Below, one piece after another: positions 50,018 to 63,434 of a stretch of 64,000 bases of DNA (the stretch's first letter is position 1; each line of letters begins with the position of its first letter). The DNA lies in the NCBI RefSeq assembly GCF_963576615.1, contig NC_088708.1, positions 7,688,001 to 7,752,000 on the forward strand, read 5' to 3'. This stretch comes from Watersipora subatra (Eukaryota > Bryozoa > Gymnolaemata > Cheilostomatida > Watersiporidae). The notes beneath the pieces are model-generated. The model saw nothing but the letters and a program-made list of their open reading frames with translations, was not told the origin of the DNA and searched no databases. The position numbers and the translations under genes are program-made.

Positions 50018-51236
50018 TGAAGTAAAATCAGGGCAACTCCCGAACTAGGCCAAGCAGGAACTGATGCTTGGTTATAGAAGCTTAGGCACCTCCAATTCAA
50101 CTAGCCTTCCATCACTGCCGGCGTAATAGCCATTAATACCGACTCACTATCACAGCCGATAGCAGACTGTGAATATACCGACGCAACCCCAACAAAAGCC
50201 GATAAATCAGACTCTGTATAACAGCCGATAGCAGACTGTGTATATACCAGCGCAACTCCAACAAGAGCCAATAATACAGACTATATATTACAGCCGATAG
50301 CAGACTGAATACATACCAGCGCAACTCTAACAAGAGCCGATAAATGCAAACTCTATATATTACAGCCAATAGCAGACTGTATAGAGACCAGCGCAACTCC
50401 AGCAAGAGCCGATAAATCAGACTCTATATACTGCAGCCGATAGCAGACTATATATATACGTATATACTAGCTCGACTCTACCAAGAGCCGATAAATGCAG
50501 ACTCTATACATACAGCTGATAGCAGACTGTATATATACTAGCGCAACTCCAACAAGAGCCAATAAATCAGACTCTATATAACAGCCGATAGCAGACTGTG
50601 TATAGACTAGCAAGCCAAGCTGTCTAAGTTACAAAAAAGATGTGTTGTACTTGAATAAATTTATTGTGATATCATAGTATGTCTCATCATGCTAGCCAAG
50701 TCTCGACTCCCCTCAAATGCAAAAACAACTGTTTATATAAGCGAGCAGAAGCAAACTCAACATATGATTGGTGGTTACAAGTAGTTGAAATTTGTAGGTC
50801 AAAACGGCAGTTACTTTTCAAAAAAACAAACGCCATTTACAAGTTAATACATAATATAAAAATCTTGTTACATTTTTGTAATACATTAATTAATATGAAA
50901 AAAAAGTTAATAATAAAACAAAGAACCAACGAATATTCTTTTTTGAAGTTCAGAGGATTTTCTGCTTGTAAGCCCAAGATAGTGGGCGCCTTATAATTCC
51001 TAAAGCGGGTGCATTTTAGCTTGCATTTATTCCGTTCTTCGTTAGCCGTTGGAACTTGAATTCTTTAGTTAGATAAATAAGCCCTGATTAACTCGCTAGT
51101 CTAGTTTTAGTCCTTGCCCCCGTCCTTTCTTCGGCCCTTCTCAGTGTCGCCGAGATTTAATGAGGAGTCGTCCTTTTGCTTAAGTGGTAAAAAGTCTTTT
51201 TCGTAAATTTACTACACTGCTTCAAGTTTGTGTTAC
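50018..51236 (-). mobile_element. Putative LTR with an internal minisatellite
   Basis: If the primer-binding-site call is right, the adjoining upstream sequence should be an LTR. On the minus strand a TGTAACA start near 51236 and a CTTCA end at 50018 would bound about 1.2 kb with TG...CA ends. It contains a 70-bp tandem array (50150-50615). No second LTR is visible to confirm the limits, so this is tentative. Confidence 0.25.
50150..50615. repeat. Minisatellite, unit about 70 bp
   Basis: About six or seven copies of a unit containing AGCCGATAAATCAGACTC, CAGCCGATAGCAGACTG and CCAGCGCAACTCCAACAAG. Each unit itself holds two AGCCGATA-type halves, suggesting an older duplication. Confidence 0.9.
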
Positions 51237-52240
51237 ATTATCATCTCATTTTTAAGTGTCAGTATAGTTACACATAGCAAGAATTTAGTATTTATGACTA
51301 TTGTGAAACAGTCATAAATTGCCCACCTCATAATCTGGTTAGATACAAAATTAACCGAGTACTCAACTGTTGATTCAAGTTTTAATGCTTTATAAGTAAG
51401 TATTAAAAACTAACAGAAGGATCTAGGAATAGAATTGAGTGGCATTCAAACTGGTTGTTTCTTATCTTTGAAATATGTCCAACTCTGCTTCCTAAATACG
51501 TTTTGCATTTTGCATTACAAGGTCTCTAAGTTTTACACAAAAACATACCTATTAAAGTTTAACATATCGATACCTTGTATCTTTAAAACAGATAACTATT
51601 TAGTTGATAGCAGCACCAACTGAAAAGCTTCCATAACACCAGCATTACTAGAGTAGTTACTAAGATCTAAATGACAAAATCTGTTATAATGAAAAAATAG
51701 CTAGCAATTCTGGGTATGAAGTAAATGGTGTCTCTAAAGTGGGCTGAGTGAATATTTGTTAAACTTTTACCAGTCTCTTTTTTTATACGATTCATGCAAA
51801 GTAAAACCAGTCATTTCTTCTCTCCCCCAAATTTATTTTCTGTTTCATTAGTAATCGAGTTTCATTAGTACACCATGAGCAACCTTTAATACTAGTAGCT
51901 TATTTATAAGGCTTACTTAGTAAATAGAGTCTTTGGTGTTACATATTGTATAAAACTTCAAGGTCTTAGCACTCCTAGTCTGTTTTTGTTGTTGTTTAGT
52001 GTAAGAAGTTGCATATTGTTGTATCAACAATATTTGAGCTCTTTTTTCCTTGATACCTGCTTCCGTATAAAGTAATTTATATTAATGCTAGTAATTTTGC
52101 CTACCACGTATAACTAACAGAACGCTGTTTACTGTTTTGGTATGAATAGGCAGTAGCTACTACTATCAGTTGTCATGCCTTCTATTTACACCAGTTATGC
52201 CAAGTGCTCTGTTATTCTTTGCTATGGCTTTGCTGTAGGG
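51237..52240. other. Spacer upstream of PRPF38A
   Basis: AT-rich DNA with no supported gene. The PRPF38A promoter and 5' untranslated region should lie toward the right end; no TATA box or known motif stands out. Confidence 0.5.
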
Positions 52241-55200
52241 ATGGCCAATCGAACAGTGAAAGATGCACATACCGTTAAAGGGACTAATCCTCAGTATTTG
52301 ATAGAGAAGATAATTCGCTCCAGAATATATGAGTCTAAATTCTGGAAGGAACAATGTTTTGCACTGTCTGGTAAGTTCATGCTACTGTCGTTCTATGGTA
52401 TTTAGTTGTCAGGTCACTCAGAGTCAGGTCACTCAGACCTTCAGCTTTGCCTATTCAATTCGTAACTTCGTTCATTAATATTACAGTACAGTCTAACGAG
52501 TACAGGCTTCTGAGAGTCTCATGAAAAATTGGCGTTTGAACAAAAGATTCGTGATTTAGCTTCACTGTAGACCAAAAGTTTAAAACTCAAACATCTCCAG
52601 GAAAAAGGGCTCGCTTACCAACAGATGGCTCTCTTTTTTATCGTTAGTATTCAACTGTTGTATGCAGACCTACGAAATACCGACAGTGTTTTGTTTGGCG
52701 TAGCTTATTATTTTATTGGAATAAAACACAAGCTGTTTCTACACATTTTCGTATAACACAGTTCTGATAGCACCAGTTTGAGGTACAGGGTTGCTAAAGT
52801 TACTGCAATACATTTCCTAGCCTAACTTCTCTAATAATAGACTATTTGTGCAAAGTTCAATTACTACTATTTTTATATGGAAACGCATAAGTCTTTTTCG
52901 GTCTTGAAACAGATGAAAATTTTATATCGAAGTTTGAAAAATCACTGTTTCCTGTAGCCTTCTAGAATGAGTTGTGGTTGAAAACTGAGTTTTCATATTT
53001 GAAAGGCTTTATGTTATAAACACAACACAATAAGCAGTTTTTTAACTTGTGAACTGGCAGATGTTTGTTGGCAGGTTTGCTGCTGTGATAGAGACTAAAG
53101 TATTTTCGACCTTCAACTACAGGCTATATCCTTCAATTTAAACCATAACTGTCACGAACAACTTTTATCGTATTTATTAGGTAAATCAGACACGCTGATT
53201 CCGATTTTGTACTCAAAATAAAGATTAGTCCACTAACCTTCAAAGTCATTTAGGCTTTTTTAAAGCGTTTCAATGTTCGTTTCGAAAACAACACAATCGG
53301 CATTACAAGCTCTGACCATAAATATGTGACGAAACCTAGCTTTTTCAGGAACGGAAGTTAGGAATGTTTAGTCCGATTTAGAATAATAGAGATTGGTGTC
53401 TTAAAACCCATTGTTATCTAAATCCAGCCTGTTAAATAATTTCAGTTTTTTATGAAAGGTATATAAACTATTTAAAATTGCTCGTAGCTTGTTACATGAC
53501 GTTTAAATGGGCTGAACGCCGAGAAAAGTGAACTTAAAAAGCGCGGTTTTATCACAAGCTAGCGTTGTTATCGCGCTTTTTTAAATATGCAATGCTAAAT
53601 AGCTTATCTACCTTTCAGAAAAGACTTATATTATTTTTAAGGCTTAATTTAGATAATAATGGATTTTGAAACACCCATCTCTATTATTATTCTAAATCGG
53701 TCTAAACATCCCTACATAGCTTCTGTTCCTAAAAAGCTAGGTTACATCACGTATTTATGGGCGGAGCTTGTTATGCCGATCGTGTTGTTTTCGAGACCGA
53801 TATTAAAACGCTGTAAAAAAGCCTTCATTACTCTGAATGTTAGTGGACGAATCTTTATTTTGAGTACAAAATCGGAATCAGCGTGTCTGATTTACCTAGT
53901 AAATACGATAAAAGCTGTTCGTGACAGTTATGGTTTAAGTTACTAAACAATTGTTGGTGGTTGGATGTCACTCTCGGTTGCATCTTGCACTTTCTAAATT
54001 CTAATAAAGCATTCACTTTGTCTGTAGCCGAGCTTCTTGTGGACAGGGCCATAGAGCTGAGGTATATTGGTGGTCACTATGGTGGCAATGTAAAACCAAC
54101 ACCATTTCTCTGTCTAATATTAAAGATGCTACAGATACAACCTGACAAAGACATCATCATAGAATTTATCAAGAATGATCACAAGTTAGTAGCTCATTGA
54201 GCCATTTTGTTAGTACACATCTAACTAGGCCATAGTATTCCAGGACAAATTTGCCACTCTTAAGTTGTATTATTCACAATATCTGGATTACCACTAAACT
54301 TGATGTGTATATTGACAGGTATGTTCGTGCTCTGGGCGCCTTTTACATGAGGATGACAGGCTCTTCCTTAGACTGCTACAAATACCTCGAACCTTTGCTT
54401 AATGACTACCGGAAAATTAGAATGCAAAATAAAATGGGAGGTAAGAAAAAATATTGGCGTCGTTTGCTCGGCCAGCTGCACTTTGATTGTTGCTTTAGTT
54501 TGGAATTATGTCGTCTTCTTCAGGCTATTTAATACTTTCCACCATGTCTTCTGATCTTAACTCTTTTTTTGCACTTCTGAGCTAGTCGATATTAGCGTCC
54601 AAACAATTTTTTAAGCAGGGCAAAACTTTTATTACGCGTTGCATTTCGCACAAATGATGATAAACGTTTAGCTGCATGTGCGCTAAGTACAACTTTTAGC
54701 CTAAAACTAGTTGTTCATATACCATCGTAAATGTAAGCCTTTTTTACAAAGTACTTTTGTCAAAGTATTAAGATCGCGTTAAACAAGGAACTACTATTAG
54801 TCTAGTTATTAATTATTTCTATGGTGTTGCTTTTTAAGTTTTAACGAAAAAACTGAAAGTTTTTGAGTTGGAAAACAAACTACGATACGAACAGAAACAA
54901 TGAAAAAATAAATTGTTATCGATGTAACTGAACCATTATGGATGATTTATGGACGATTTTATGGACACTCTTCTACTGATCACTTGCTATTACGGGTTCG
55001 TAAAGATCAAGAATGTCAAAGTGGCCGACAAATGAAGGTGGCATTCAATTACATGGTGGCGCTCTATTTTTCAACCCTTATCTATAGTGGCATTCAAATA
55101 GAGGTGGTGTTCAAATAAAGGTGTCATTCAATTAGAGGTTTTATGGTAAATCCGATTTACAACCCCAAATTGTTTCTGAATGAGTCAGAGTTCTTTTAAT

Positions 55201-58200
55201 GAATGTTTGTTTATTTCATATTGTTATTGCATTAATTTAGCCTGTAGACCAGTTCAAGGTAAGTTACTCAAATCCATTAGGTAATTGTTCTACTACCCGT
55301 GTAATGCCCGGCATTCGGCTAGTAATATCATAAGATTGGGTTACATACTTTGTAGTAGCAAAGCAAAGATGTATATACCTAATAGTAATATAACATAGAA
55401 TTATGTACCTAATAGTAGCATATAGTTATATTACTAATAGTAGCATAACGTGGAGTTATACACCTAATAGTAATATAGCCAGGAACTAGGGCTCTGTCTT
55501 CTGAGAGAAGCTTTGCTATTTATATGAATGTCAGAGTTAGTCTAGGTTTGATTGTTTCGTGATAGTATTTGCTATAGACAAAAAGGAAGGAGCCAAACAG
55601 CTACAGCTCTATCTCTGAAACTCTAAAGTAAACTTTGCGGCAGTAAATATAAAACACTTTAACAAAATATGCAATTTTCTGTAATGTCCATTTAAAAATA
55701 TATGTTCAATTTATTGTTGTCTAACCTGTGGGAAAAACTCCAAATTTATAGCTTTACTGAATCTTGCGTGCCCGATTTATCTTGCCTTGAAAACATGAAT
55801 TTTTAACTTTTCAAAAGCTAATTTTAGCAAGGCCATAAGCTGACAGATTCCATCCGCATTATTGGCATTTTACAAGCGCCCTTGAATAGTGCTAAACTTG
55901 TTCATTTGTTTGAGTATATGAGACAAATGATGTTACCAGTTTTCTCATATTCCGTTGCAACTTAACTGCTAATCATGCGATTCCAAGCTTTCTGTGTCAA
56001 CAATTGAATAAATTAGTAAGAAGTGGTTCCTCATGAAAGAGTTACTTGCATAGATAATCGATGGGTAGTAACTATTTGTAATATCTGCTCAGAGCTCACT
56101 CAGGACTAGTATGGCACTATTTGTGTTCATTGTAATTGAATATAATACTTCAATCATCTTTGCTATGCACATCATCCTGTGTTGTTTCTCATTTTTTACA
56201 GACTTTGAATTGTCTCACATGGATGAGTTTATCGACTCACTCCTGCGAGAAGACAGGGTGTGCGACTGTATACTACCCCGTATACAGAAGAGATTGGTGC
56301 TTGAGGAAAACAACGAGCTCGATCCAAGGATAAGCGCTCTTGATGATGATATGGATGACATTGAAAGTTCAGATGAGGAGGGAGAGTTGAGGGTGGGTTG
56401 GCGTGTGCTGGTTTTGGCATAGACTGGCAATTCTCAACTACCTGCATGATGGTACATTTTTCATACAGCATAATACTGTCAGTGGTATTTTGTGTTAGCA
56501 AAAAAGATCCTTCGATACTCAGGGTTAAATTTTTTGCTGTGGTGCCATATTTTAATTACAAAATCTCGGTCTCAAAAAAATTTAATCGTGTTATCTCAAA
56601 AATAAGAAAACCTTTGATAGACCTTTCTTTAGTTTCTTTCATCCTTTTCACGCGTTCTCGGTGTGAGCATGCTTGTCTGTTCTGGTGGCATGTACTGATA
56701 TGGAATTTTTGCAAAATCGTATTGAAAATGATAAAATTTTTGAGGTATATATCGTTTGTACATTCATCAATATCAAATCATATGCAGGCAATGCTTATAA
56801 TTATGATGAAATATCACTTTCAATATCATGTTTTTCATCTGGCCAGGGGTCATGAACATACAGGCGTAAAGGTGTGCCCACTGTTGCCTATTCAAAACAC
56901 TTACATGTACACATACAATTATTTATAGGCATGCCTGTTTAGAATGAAGAATATTTTTTGCAAAAATTATGATTGTTTTTAAACAGTTCTAGGAAGATTC
57001 ATAGCTTGTTAAGGTCGATCATCAAGACCTAATGATCAACTTTGGCAGGTTATGAAACTGGCAGTAATGGACAAATAGAAGAATAATAGACAAGTACAGT
57101 CAAACATGGATAACTCGTCCACGGATAGCTCGAACACATGGTTAATTCGAACATTTCCTTTGGTCCGTTCCCACGTAATGATAAATTGCTATAGATAACT
57201 CGAACTCAACACTGTTAATTCGAACTGTTTTTTTGCCCAACGGCTACCGAAACGGTTGTTATCGCTTTAGAAAATCACTTTATTCAAAGCCATAGAGGTA
57301 AACTTCATCTTTTCGTAATTCATAAGCGTCGTTATTACCACCATCGGCAAAATATTTTTGTCAACGACTTTTCTAAAGGTTTGGTGAAATTTGATTTATA
57401 CTGCTACACGATGAATAGCACGGGCTAGCCGGGTCACGCGCGCAAGGATTTTCGCCACGCACATACAAAACAAAAATCGCATGTTGTTTTTGTTTTGTAT
57501 GTGCGTGGCGAAAATCCTTGAGTGCGTGACCTGGCTAGCCCGTGATGAATAGTTTTCCGACGTTGATTCCGTGTTGAATAAACGTCGGAATGTTGAATGT
57601 TTAAAACGTCTTAAAAATTGTTGTAATTAAACTTTAACGTTGTCTGAGCTACAAAAAACTATTCATCGTTTGACCTAAACACAGAATACGTGTGTACATT
57701 CAATAAGTATCTATTAAAAAAACGTGAGTGATATAGAATGTACCGTAAAACCTCGTAAAACTTCTTACTGAACTGCCTCGGAGTGTTGCTCTTAACGAAT
57801 CCCAGGTAAAGTAAGATAATCTTTGCATAAACTTCAAGAAAAAACGGCAAAATTGATCGTGGGTAAAACCCCAAAAGAAAAAAATGTCTTTTCTTTTGAG
57901 CATTTCAACAACGATCAAGTTTTGCCAATGTCAATCTGAAAAACGTCCTGGCAATAACATCACCTCAAACAACAAACCAATCTCAAGTGATAGAAAAATC
58001 TCTATACTTTTTCATAAAAACGTTTTAAACTTTACATTTGAAGCATTTAATTTGAAACAAGCCATTTGTGCTTTTGATTTATATTATAGTTTGTATATGT
58101 ACATGTATCTACTAATAAATAAGTAAATATATGGACTTGTGACAGTGCTCTGATAACTTGAACGCTCTGATAATTCAAACACTTTTGCTCGGTCCCTTGA

Positions 58201-61028
58201 AGTTCGAGTTATCCATGTTTGACTGTATGTGTACCTGGCGTGTTAACTAGCTTATATATAGTCTAATTTTCTTTGTTTGCACCAGTTAGTTATAATTAAC
58301 GTTTGCATGAATTTCAGATTTTTGTACATCCTTTGGATGACCAGCAAACTTAAAAACAAGATTGTCATTTATTAACATGGAAAATTTGTCCAAGTAGTCA
58401 ATTTTAGACTTCGGTGATGAATTTGCTAATAATTTTTTTCAAGTTCATGTATTGGTTATTCACACAGCAAAATGTTGTTGAGCAAAGAAAAACATTTCAT
58501 GCGTAATTTTTGAAAACTCACTATACAGTTTTGATAAATTTCGCATACATTTGCTGGAGTAAAAAACTGTACTTTCTCATTTAGCATACAAAAACTAGAT
58601 CAACTACACATATTATCAGTTTTGATGCATTCTGGGTATACAAACTGATAATTGTGGAGGTTAGGACTACCGGGTGAAAATTAGTAGGTTGCCAGCTTTG
58701 CTCTGATGAGTAATATTCCTAACCAAATAGATTATTACATACAAGATTTATCAGATATTCTGGCCCTATTCTAGTGCTTGTGCTCTATAGTTTTAACCAT
58801 TGTTTTCTGTGAAGGCAAAATTCATCAAATATAGCAAGTTACCCTCTGCATGTGGAATGCCAGAGGAGCAACTATTTGCTCGGTTTTCCAATACGTATTC
58901 CTGTAAAGGAAATCCTGGCGTCAAGCTGCATGGTGGTAGATTGCTCATATTCTGATTGCCACTTGACGTTGCTTGTCGCTTTTGTAGTCTTTTATAAATA
59001 TCAGCTTAATGTGTCTGCAGTTCAAATTTTGCAGTTTTTTGATGCTTAGGAAATGGCTGCAAAGCAACGAGAGCGAGAAAGCCCCCGTAGACGATCTCCT
59101 GTGAGGAAGCGAAGCAGGTCGCCTCAGGCAAGACGAAGAGACAGGCATGACAATAGACATGGAGGACATGACAGGGACCGACACAGACGGTCTAGGGAAC
59201 GTGATAGGGGTGTCAGGGATGATCGGGGTGTCAGGGATGATCGGGGTATCAGGGATGATCGAGGTATCAGGGATGATCGGGGTGTCAGGGATGATCGGGG
59301 AGAAAGAGATCGTGGAGAAAGAGACAGAAAACGACCTCGCTCGAGATCACCAAAACGAAGTGATCGACCAAGGTAAGGCAGGCTCACATAAAAATATTTA
59401 ACTAACATTGTTGAATTGTCGAGCTCTACGTACTAATTGTCCCAGTTGAATTATGAATATGGCGCCTGGGAAGCGATATGACACGCGTTGCCTTGGTTCA
59501 ATTCTAGTAGATATCCCCAAACTCAGCTGTACTGGTCAGGTGTTTCAACTCGATGCCATTTAATATTTGGACTAATGTTACACACTAGTCGTATCGATGT
59601 TTGACATTTTTATAATATCAATTTTGGCATTAAACACCATAGGACAATGATATTCGAAGTTAGCGCACTTGCAACTAAAAACAATGCAAAAGCCCAATCC
59701 AATATGTTCATGACACATACAAGGTCTGCACTTTAAACTCCCAAACGGTTTTTGATTTATTTTCATCAACAATAGTAATTAAACAAAAGGAAAAAGCTAG
59801 ACATGTGATGAAGCCCATAATACACATTAGCATAGCTAGCCGTGGCGTCGGGCTTGTCATCATTGCATAATCAAGATCAATTCTATGAATAATTAGCTTT
59901 TATTCACTTATTAAAAGATGTAATTTAAGTTGTTTCTTCAAACTGACCACCTCTATTTTTTCTATAGTATTAGTGAGTTGGTTCCAAAAATGACCTGTTG
60001 GTAATCCAACCTGCGATGGCCTGCACGGGAAGATTGTGGGAGATTTAGACAGAAATTTGAGAACCTAGTTTGATATATTGTGGAAGAGATGTAATTGCAA
60101 TAAAATTTATGATGGGCTAAAAGTATAATGTAGTATGAATATAGTGATCTGATAGGTAGTATGGATGAATTGAAAAGAGATTTGGTGTAGATGAGGTTTT
60201 TTGTGAATGGTTCTACCATGCGCTTTTGAAGTGTTATCAACTTCGTAAGATGGGTGGGAGGTGCTTTGTCCCATGCCTCAATGCAATATGAAAGTTTGGA
60301 ATTAACCATGGAATTGTATAACGAAAGCAGAGGTTTGTGAGGTAAATATTCAGATGTGCAGTCGATCAAGTCTGATAAGGATCTGTTGTTTTAGTAAATA
60401 TTCGATGCATTTTTTCCAAGTGAGATTAGAATCGATGAAAATACCAAAGAATTTTATTTGATCTGTTTGACAAATTGGTTTGTTGAAAATGAAAAGGGAC
60501 GAGTGCTATCTAGATGAGATTAGTTTCTGTTTTTTTTAGTAGCATGAGAAACTAGTCTTATCAACATTTAAGGTGAGTTTGTTATAACTCACCTTAAATT
60601 TTGTTATATGAACTACATGTAATAAGAAATATTTAGAAGTACGCAACATGCCTTATGATTCACATTTGTTTTCAGCATCTACCTTACAATGCTTGTTTCA
60701 ATTCGTGATTACGTTGACTTTGAACCAAATCTGCTCATTGATTTGTTTATTTATATAAAGACTTAGATTATGTAGCAATAGCTGTGTTTCTTTGTCTGCT
60801 TACATTAAAATACCATCTAACATCTAATTTATTTGTTAATATCAAGATGATATTTATGGATTTTTGAGTAATCATGAGGTCTTGTATCAGATTAATTTTC
60901 AAACACTGCCTTGCAGCAGGAGACATAGGTCACGGGAACGTGGAGGAGCAAGCTCAAAAGACCAACTTGATATTGAAGAAGCTAATGCATTGCGAGCGAA
61001 ACTGGGACTGGCACCACTACGCCCTTGA
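52241..61028 (+). CDS. PRPF38A: Pre-mRNA-splicing factor 38A
   Basis: Six exons, all in phase with GT-AG sites: 52241-52370, 54028-54184, 54319-54440, 56202-56392, 59050-59372 and 60920-61028, giving 343 residues (human about 312). The start is fixed by MANRTVKDAHTVKGTNPQYL, nearly identical to human. The PRP38 domain follows: IIRSRIYESKFWKEQC, ELRYIGGHYGGNVKPTPFLC, MLQIQPDKDIIIEFIKN, LGAFYMRMTGSSLDCYKYLE and MDEFIDSLLREDRVCD. Then come an acidic stretch (DDDMDDIESSDEEGE) and an RS/RD-rich tail. PRPF38A is a component of the B-stage spliceosome; that is family knowledge. Oddities are a six-residue RD repeat (RGVRDD-like, about five copies) encoded by an 18-bp minisatellite in exon 5, a NAGNAG acceptor before exon 6, and a C-terminal EEANALRAKLGLAPLRP motif resembling the Hub1-interaction element HIND. 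The human protein ends differently, so exon 6 may be ancestral or gained. Confidence 0.96.
53138..53938. mobile_element. Foldback element, arms about 295 bp, PRPF38A intron 1
   Basis: The segment at 53138-53430 is closely complementary to 53640-53938, separated by a loop of about 210 bp. Outer ends are TTAAACCATAACTGTCACGA and its complement; inner ends near GGCTTAATTTAGATAATA. Arm identity looks high. An RNA of the intron could form a very long hairpin 90 bp before exon 2. It is a MITE/foldback type; the family is unknown. Confidence 0.85.
55014..55148. mobile_element. MITE end fragment related to 31873-33812
   Basis: This contains GGTGGCGCTCTATTTTTCAA, TAGTGGCATTCAAATAGAGG and ends TTAGAGGTTTTATGG. 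Reverse complemented it matches the left end of the element at 31873. A single end is present in PRPF38A intron 3. Confidence 0.6.
55370..55490. repeat. Degenerate tandem repeat
   Basis: Four imperfect units of about 33 bp with TACCTAATAGTAATATA and AGCATA variants, in PRPF38A intron 3. Confidence 0.6.
57097..58225. mobile_element. Tigger/pogo-like element with perfect 20-bp-plus terminal repeats
   Basis: The left end CAGTCAAACATGGATAACTC matches the reverse complement of the right end exactly for 21 bp, and both sides carry TA (57095-57096 and 58226-58227). Subterminal AACTCGAAC and AATTCGAAC motifs recur at both ends. It is about 1.13 kb with no transposase. It contains the hAT-like MITE at 57419-57544 and sequence related to the foldback at 44024-44412. 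It lies in PRPF38A intron 4. Confidence 0.85.
57419..57544. mobile_element. 126-bp hAT-like hairpin MITE with 8-bp target duplication
   Basis: Near-perfect inverted arms start CACGGGCTAGCCGGGTCACG and, on the other side reverse complemented, CACGGGCTAGCCAGGTCACG. They continue with only about three mismatches through AAGGATTTTCGCC and CATACAAAACAAAAA. Exact 8-bp direct repeats ATGAATAG flank it at 57411-57418 and 57545-57552. Eight-base duplications fit hAT transposases. It is inserted within the Tigger-like element, so it is younger. Confidence 0.9.
59200..59310 (+). repeat. 18-bp coding minisatellite in PRPF38A exon 5
   Basis: Units of GGGGTGTCAGGGATGATC encode Arg-Gly-Val-Arg-Asp-Asp (with Ile or Glu variants). 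Because 18 is a multiple of three, copy changes keep the frame. The stretch lengthens the RD-dipeptide tail. Confidence 0.9.
59960..60590 (-). pseudogene. LINE 3' fragment in PRPF38A intron 5
   Basis: The minus strand shows DKTSF, then TDQIKFFGIFIDSNLTWKKC (the usual K-FLGV-ID--L-W block), a frame change, then LYNSMVNSKLSYCIEAWDKA, LQKRMVEPFTKN and an arginine/tyrosine-rich end. This is the C-terminal part of a CR1/Jockey-type reverse transcriptase ORF. It is 5'-truncated, antisense to PRPF38A and frame-shifted. Confidence 0.8.
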
Positions 61029-62065: not shown

Positions 62066-62150
62066 CCTTTTAATTAAAAGACCCAAAGACGCCTTTTAAT
62101 TAAAAGACCCAAAGACGCCTTTTAATTAAAAGACCCAAAGACGCCCTTTA
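62066..62150. repeat. 26-bp tandem repeat, three copies
   Basis: Three head-to-tail copies of a unit with CCTTTTAATTAAAAGACC and CAAAGACG. TTTTAATTAAAA within each unit is itself palindromic. Confidence 0.9.
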
Positions 62151-63434
62151 ACTAACATTAAAATGAAATGGTTTTTCCCTAGTGTACCGCTCTTGTACTG
62201 ACTCTACCAACATGCCGAATAAATAAGCAAGACGCATGTAAAAATGCTCTTGTGCTCATAGCATGTATTCAAAGTAGGATTATCCGCAAATAGCTACTAA
62301 CAAAATTAGCTATTACAAATACTTGTTGATTAATTCATGGTTTCATTACAAACTCGATCTGAATATGGAGATAATTAAATCAGTTGTACTTGTGAGATTT
62401 ATAGATACATGCCTATTGAAAATGGCTGCTATTTTAATTGCAAGCGCAGTCCATCTTGTTCAATTAGCAGTATTATGATAAATACCAAGATAAACTTGTC
62501 ACAAATTTTAGCGCTTTAATAACAAAAATTCATTTAGCAAGTATGGAGATAGCCCTACAAGATGGAGATGTGCTACTATTTCATGCCAACAATGATAGTT
62601 TCCAAATGACAATGAAGAGCGTTAGCATTTCTAGGTTACTACTGTCATGACGGATATGTTGACGTGAAACAAAGTAAAAACTATGTAAACAGAACTAAAG
62701 CAAGCTTAACAGTCATACCTTTGGCAGGTTTGACTGTTAAGCCATACGTAAAATTTAACCATTTCAAGTTACAGTGAACACAGCATGAAAGAATTTCATA
62801 GCAATTAATAGCAAGTTTTGAAAAGTTATACGACTACAACAAATACTTATCAAATACGCTGAAAATAAAAACTGGCTACTTGTGGAAAATCTATATATTT
62901 TGTGTTCTTGAAACTCATGCTAACATTAAATTTTCATTCAATTCTAGCATTGAGTGAATTGTAACTCAGAGGTTATGCATTATATTATTAGTATTAATTA
63001 GTAATTAAACAACACTTGTTTGGAATCTTTGTTGCATTTATGTTGAACGCTTAATATTTTGTGCATACAAAATAACTCGTCCCATTTATGTGGCACAAGT
63101 ACATTGCCTGTTCTTATCACTTTTGCTAATTTGTAATGCCGTTAATGACAAAGAGAAGTTATGTTCACATAGAAATATGCAGCAACACAGTATAATTTTT
63201 TAACTCATGTTTTTGCAATAATGTAGACTTGCATATAATAACAGGTTCAGAGTGGTCACAATAAATATGACTTAAAATGCATGAGTTATTGCCCACAAAT
63301 AGTCCTTACAATTACTTAGGAGGTAGGTGAGGCCTTTGTGGCAAATAACTGGCAACAGCATTGAAAATCTACCATAGTATTAGGAAATCTTACATTGGCA
63401 ACCCATATGAATAACAGGAGTTGTCCATGCAATC

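Follow-up and report, generated by a model that had tools for sequence, protein, structure and literature searches.

A probable HIND motif at the C terminus of PRPF38A in a bryozoan that also has one in SART1

The window, by which we mean the whole 64,000-nucleotide stretch of Watersipora subatra DNA that was analysed (C1:7688001-7752000, in a genome of 784 Mb and 239 contigs), holds a PRPF38A gene whose six coding exons span 52241-61028 on the + strand and encode 343 residues without an internal stop. Exon 1 begins at the ATG (52241..52370) and is followed by exon 2 (54028..54184), exon 3 (54319..54440), exon 4 with the end of the PRP38 domain and an acidic stretch (56202..56392), exon 5 with an Arg/Ser/Asp-rich tail that includes an 18-nt coding tandem repeat of the DDRGVR type (59050..59372), and exon 6, which encodes the end of the RS tail, a HIND motif and the stop (60920..61028). 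All five introns are GT...AG. An alternative end of exon 4 at 56391 instead of 56392 was considered and discarded, as it breaks the frame. Profile search with Pfam recovers the PRP38 domain in the joined protein at E 8.9e-67, and the best PDB matches are human PRPF38A, at 5.5e-102 for 4rza_A and 9e-97 for the full-length 5o9z_I. When the identity of the protein was tested, four human PRPF38A PDB sequences matched at E<=1.9e-91 and Chaetomium Prp38 at 9.7e-47. Two bases 5' of the ATG there is a possible 3' splice site, ttgctgtag/GG (window 52230-52241), which may belong to an intron in the 5' UTR or may accept a spliced leader.

A PRP38-domain profile search of the genome gave six matches, two of which fall at a second locus on contig C9 (3680007-3680219 and 3682310-3682459, - strand), with stops inside the matched stretches; this locus may be PRPF38B or a broken copy. 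None of the 46 pattern matches in genome_contigs and the five in viral_contigs, collections that hold no animal genomes as such, was confirmed as a PRP38 relative.

Exon 5 (donor AAG/gtaagg) joins exon 6 in phase 2. Exon 6 has a tandem acceptor, CAGCAG, either position of which is in frame: the one at 60920 gives 343 residues and the alternative one upstream, at 60917, gives 344, the difference being one extra Ser. Translation of exon 6 reads (S)RRHRSRERGGASSKDQLDIEEANALRAKLGLAPLRP and then the TGA stop codon at 61026-61028, and the C-terminus of the protein is QLDIEEANALRAKLGLAPLRP. The gene model confirms both the coordinates and the C-terminal peptide that an earlier sequence-only reading had given for this exon. 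It is conceivable that the HIND is a regulated module, such that retention of intron 5, or polyadenylation inside it, would yield an isoform that lacks the HIND, as the human protein does. An open frame from 59050 to 59376, ending ...SDRPR with an in-frame TAA at the donor (59374-59376), would fit such a scheme, but with a gtaag donor in phase 2 the consensus of the site by itself produces a stop so close by, and we regard regulation of this kind as very unlikely.

The founding HIND paper is reportedly that of Mishra et al. 2011. In PRPF38A the motif is LDIEEANALRAKLGLAPLRP, the 20 residues preceding the stop (60966..61025, + strand). The Pfam family PF19252 (HIND) matches the C-terminal 35 residues at E 2.7e-5 and 23.9 bits and the whole protein at E 7.7e-4 and 19.2 bits, both under the curated cut-off of 25, on a scale where a human SART1 HIND peptide reaches 53.6 bits and the SART1 HIND of this animal 38.9 bits. 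Searched at E<=10 against the PDB, a 31-residue tail finds three distinct sequences, all Snu66/SART1 and none PRPF38A (5nrl_E at 1.1e-4, human SART1 5o9z_P at 0.016 and 3plv_C at 0.18). When the isolated 35-residue tail was modelled with AlphaFold2, as a single sequence with no partner, residues 12-28 formed a helix with a mean pLDDT of 78, and the block 21-30 reached 92, which supports a helical HIND only weakly; both yeast HINDs are described as helical when bound (PMC3628832, in the part available).

Could such a short match be a chance reading frame, in an exon that lies outside PRPF38A altogether? When all six frames of the 784 Mb genome were searched for HINDs at E<=10, the PRPF38A tail was the better of two matches, but its E was only 0.077 (22.9 bits), and of 14 control genomes three also gave matches in this search, none of them above the cut-off. 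Neither AATAAA nor ATTAAA occurs in the 672 bases 3' of the stop, which counts mildly against exon 6 being the last exon. Against a chance frame, the splice sites are phase-compatible and the motif lies directly 5' of the stop, and we identify it as a HIND because it sits in frame at the PRPF38A end. Moreover, a six-frame scan of the window finds the core LRxxLGLxP[LI] once and the pattern EExNxLRxxLG once as well, and neither turns up in any of 200 first-order Markov simulations of it; the looser core [LI]R..LG[LM], with 0.6 occurrences expected by chance, is observed once, at the PRPF38A tail. The Prp38 HINDs of nematodes and plants are also C-terminal, as described in the available text of PMC7615767 and PMC6857937. 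We therefore consider a chance frame outside the gene to be extremely improbable.

The second of the two genome-wide matches, at C9:50086270-50086317 (16.3 bits, E 8.7), was rejected as a HIND, since the stretch matches zf-C4H2 (PF10146, E 1.7e-6, 29.2 bits, under that family's cut-off of 34.5). This ZC4H2-like stretch lies on the - strand, has weak PDB matches (best E 0.029) and contains the HIND-like piece EVNELRTELGLEPLEEDD, which scores 16.1 bits and E 0.0071 against PF19252; its resemblance to a HIND is probably a coincidence.

Residue by residue, the PRPF38A tail resembles the crystallised human SART1 HIND peptide, given as SLSIEETNKLRAKLGLKPL in the accessible part of PMC4141198, at 14 of 19 identical positions, and it keeps seven of the eight listed contact residues. 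Among these is the salt-bridge Arg, whose codon (60993..60995, + strand) is equivalent to human SART1 R127, the partner of UBL5 D22, by alignment to the published peptide. The one contact residue changed is human SART1 Thr123, which is Ala here, and Ala also stands in place of Lys133. For comparison, the two yeast HINDs share 11/19 and 10/19 with the human peptide. We take the HIND-like motif recognised by the sequence-only reading to be real. Its position differs from the human one: the human SART1/SNU66 HIND (residues 117-135, PDB 4PYU) lies near the N terminus of SART1, whereas the motif described here forms the very end of PRPF38A. Human PRPF38A, although it is the closest PDB protein, has no HIND match in its tail; the alignment to the full-length human sequence ends at residue 302 of 312, within the human RS tail, and human PRPF38A is absent from the PDB matches of the HIND-bearing tail, which supports, as far as the human protein goes, the earlier statement that the vertebrate PRPF38A C-terminus lacks the motif.

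A C-terminal HIND on Prp38 could be the outcome of a plant-like relocation, in which the HIND of SART1 has been lost, and the absence of a SART1 match from the genome-wide search suggested as much. We rejected this idea, because the SART1 HIND is present and split between exons. On contig C7, SART1 gives six exon-wise profile matches at E<=1, three of them above the family cut-off, and the joined-exon peptide, ENLSIEETNALRLKLGLKPL, aligns to human SART1 112-191. The two halves of the HIND lie in two exons (...ENLSIEETN / ALRLKLGLKPL...), separated by an intron of about 1.66 kb, in phase 2, that falls in an Asn codon (...GAA ACA AA/gtaagt ... ttcag/T GCA CTC...) and runs from about C7:21383637 down to 21381982 as read from the genomic stretch. 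After splicing the HIND reads NLSIEETNALRLKLGLKPL and matches PF19252 at 5.6e-10 and 38.9 bits. The six-frame search gave no SART1 HIND because this intron splits the motif, and other intron-split HINDs in the genome would be missed in the same way. The check proposed by the sequence-only reading, whether the SART1 of this species has retained a HIND as well, is accordingly answered in the affirmative. The presumed ligand is encoded as well: UBL5, on contig C2, is identical to the human protein at 64 of 72 positions and keeps 11/11 of the positions that we checked (M1, N7, K13, V16, K17, C18, N19, D22, K29, L30 and A33). With one HIND in SART1 and another in PRPF38A of one genome, the animal, as judged from its sequence, carries two HINDs.

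If the HIND of SART1 suffices, that of PRPF38A might be a redundant, fading leftover of an inherited motif, whose binding to UBL5 is weak or nil in cells. The higher score of the SART1 HIND in the same genome (38.9 against 23.9 bits) is consistent with such decay, and so is the weak behaviour of the C. elegans counterpart, which was two-hybrid negative (PMC7615767). But the Arg and the IEE-N-LR-KLGL-PL pattern are kept, together with all but one of the eight contact residues, where a neutrally drifting RS tail should have lost them, and we consider a fading motif unlikely. We instead think it likely that the HIND encoded by the final PRPF38A exon is genuine, that the animal has two of them, and that tethering of UBL5 is the most probable role of this one.

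The sequence-only reading took a Prp38-borne HIND to be potentially new for an animal, and this does not hold. According to the part of PMC7615767 available, C. elegans PRP-38 carries a C-terminal HIND and SART-1 a further one; the PRP-38 HIND pulled down UBL-5 from crude lysate in a GST assay, gave a negative result in yeast two-hybrid, and neither PRP-38 nor SART-1 was detected in the UBL-5 co-immunoprecipitation reported there. Our finding is a further animal with a nematode-like dual arrangement, of a kind already published: as in C. elegans, a Prp38 with a C-terminal HIND is accompanied by a SART1 HIND in the same species. It differs from the worm, with which we compare it by description, in that the species and the tail are others, and in that worm UBL-5 was pulled down whereas binding is here only predicted. 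Outside the animals, plants have a HIND on Prp38 (PMC7615767 and PMC4141198, as far as their available text goes), and that at the C terminus of Arabidopsis PRP38 binds UBL5 in two-hybrid and BiFC assays (PMC6857937, accessible part). In the same portion of that paper Arabidopsis Snu66 is said to be without a HIND, and elsewhere in the paper no Snu66 homologue is said to exist; the bryozoan resembles Arabidopsis in the C-terminal HIND on Prp38, but unlike Arabidopsis it keeps the HIND of SART1. Plasmodium likewise has dual HINDs, on Snu66 and Prp38 (available parts of PMC4141198, PMC7615767 and PMC8431670), but is a protist, and the comparison is made via published descriptions. Among the open-licence papers listed by our searches, none was a survey of the motif in other animals.

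What might a second HIND be for? The sequence-only reading had envisaged a second tri-snRNP subunit as a possible docking place for Hub1, which is doubtful in an animal. Human PRPF38A is counted with UBL5, SNU23 and MFAP1 among the B-specific proteins (PMC5364666; PMC10943123, in the sections available), and the same sections of PMC10943123 have PRP38A, SNU23, MFAP1 and UBL5 join at the transition from pre-B to B, whereas a review, in its accessible text, treats PRPF38A/Prp38 as a tri-snRNP component (PMC8431670). The supposed second docking site on the tri-snRNP is better described as a tether by which UBL5 would be delivered at the B complex. Since PRPF38A and UBL5 are recruited together at the B step in humans, a HIND on the PRPF38A tail would be well placed to bring or retain UBL5 and then to release it, and we infer that it would do so locally instead of holding UBL5 permanently. 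In our reading the HIND is probably a short amphipathic helix that ends a probably disordered RS-type tail, and it would bind UBL5 non-covalently in the manner of the SART1 HIND, through a salt bridge between the Arg and Asp22 and through leucine contacts. The flexible tail would then most likely act as a tether: PRPF38A, which in humans enters the spliceosome at the B-complex stage beside the site of UBL5, would bring UBL5 in or keep it there, and then pass it on to its final place near the 5' exon, where the HIND face of UBL5 would be taken over by MFAP1 or SART1.

That final place is where UBL5 is found in human B complexes, by the 5' exon (available text of PMC6274647 and PMC10943123). Which protein occupies its HIND face differs between models: in the human B-complex model of 2018 the SNU66 HIND binds UBL5, with Prp38 and Prp8 domains surrounding it (PMC6274647, in part), whereas in that of 2024 the density at UBL5 is the C-terminal region of MFAP1, whose R358 meets UBL5 D22 (PMC10943123, in part). 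The two models conflict as to whether SNU66 or MFAP1 lies there. In yeast, moving the Snu66 HIND to other tri-snRNP proteins restores Hub1 function, as recounted in the accessible part of PMC8431670, which fits a tether for which the precise point of attachment is of little consequence. In human cells Hub1 D22A still rescues splicing, perhaps less well (available part of PMC4141198), which means that splicing does not strictly depend on the HIND contact.

A wider scenario, which is possible and which we put forward only tentatively, is that the common ancestor of animals, perhaps even that of eukaryotes, already had a C-terminal HIND on Prp38, which then disappeared along the line leading to human PRPF38A. 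Where animals have kept it, PRPF38A and SART1 would work as a two-site relay for loading UBL5 onto the 5' exon while the B complex forms, and would broaden the choice of 5' splice sites. With a bryozoan beside it C. elegans looks less of an oddity, and it may be the human PRPF38A tail that is the exception. The peptides from PRPF38A and SART1 also offer a concrete pair with which to ask why the spliceosome would need two grips on UBL5, given that the one UBL5 face must finally be held by MFAP1 or SART1.

The minisatellite in exon 5 (window 59202-59300) has an 18-nt unit in 5.5 copies with 93% matches, which places DDRGVR/DDRGIR repeats in the tail, and its length may vary between individuals. 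Intron 4 contains an element looking like a DNA transposon (window 57090-58232), bounded by 28-nt terminal inverted repeats, ACAAGTACAGTCAAACATGGATAACTCG, that are 93% complementary and 1087 nt apart; nested within it is a 58-nt hairpin at 57419-57544, and the terminal inverted repeats may resemble Tigger/pogo ends. Open frames on the - strand of intron 5 (59962-60505) may resemble the end of a LINE reverse transcriptase protein, and a Pfam scan of these frames gave no LINE reverse transcriptase match. In intron 1 there is a large foldback (window 53135-53941) with 211-nt arms, 90% complementary and 385 nt apart, and with further arms inside. Beside the gene lie two tandem arrays, one at window 62066-62155 with a 26-nt unit in 3.5 copies (96% matches) and the other at window 50141-50611 with a 69-nt unit in 6.6 copies (80% matches).
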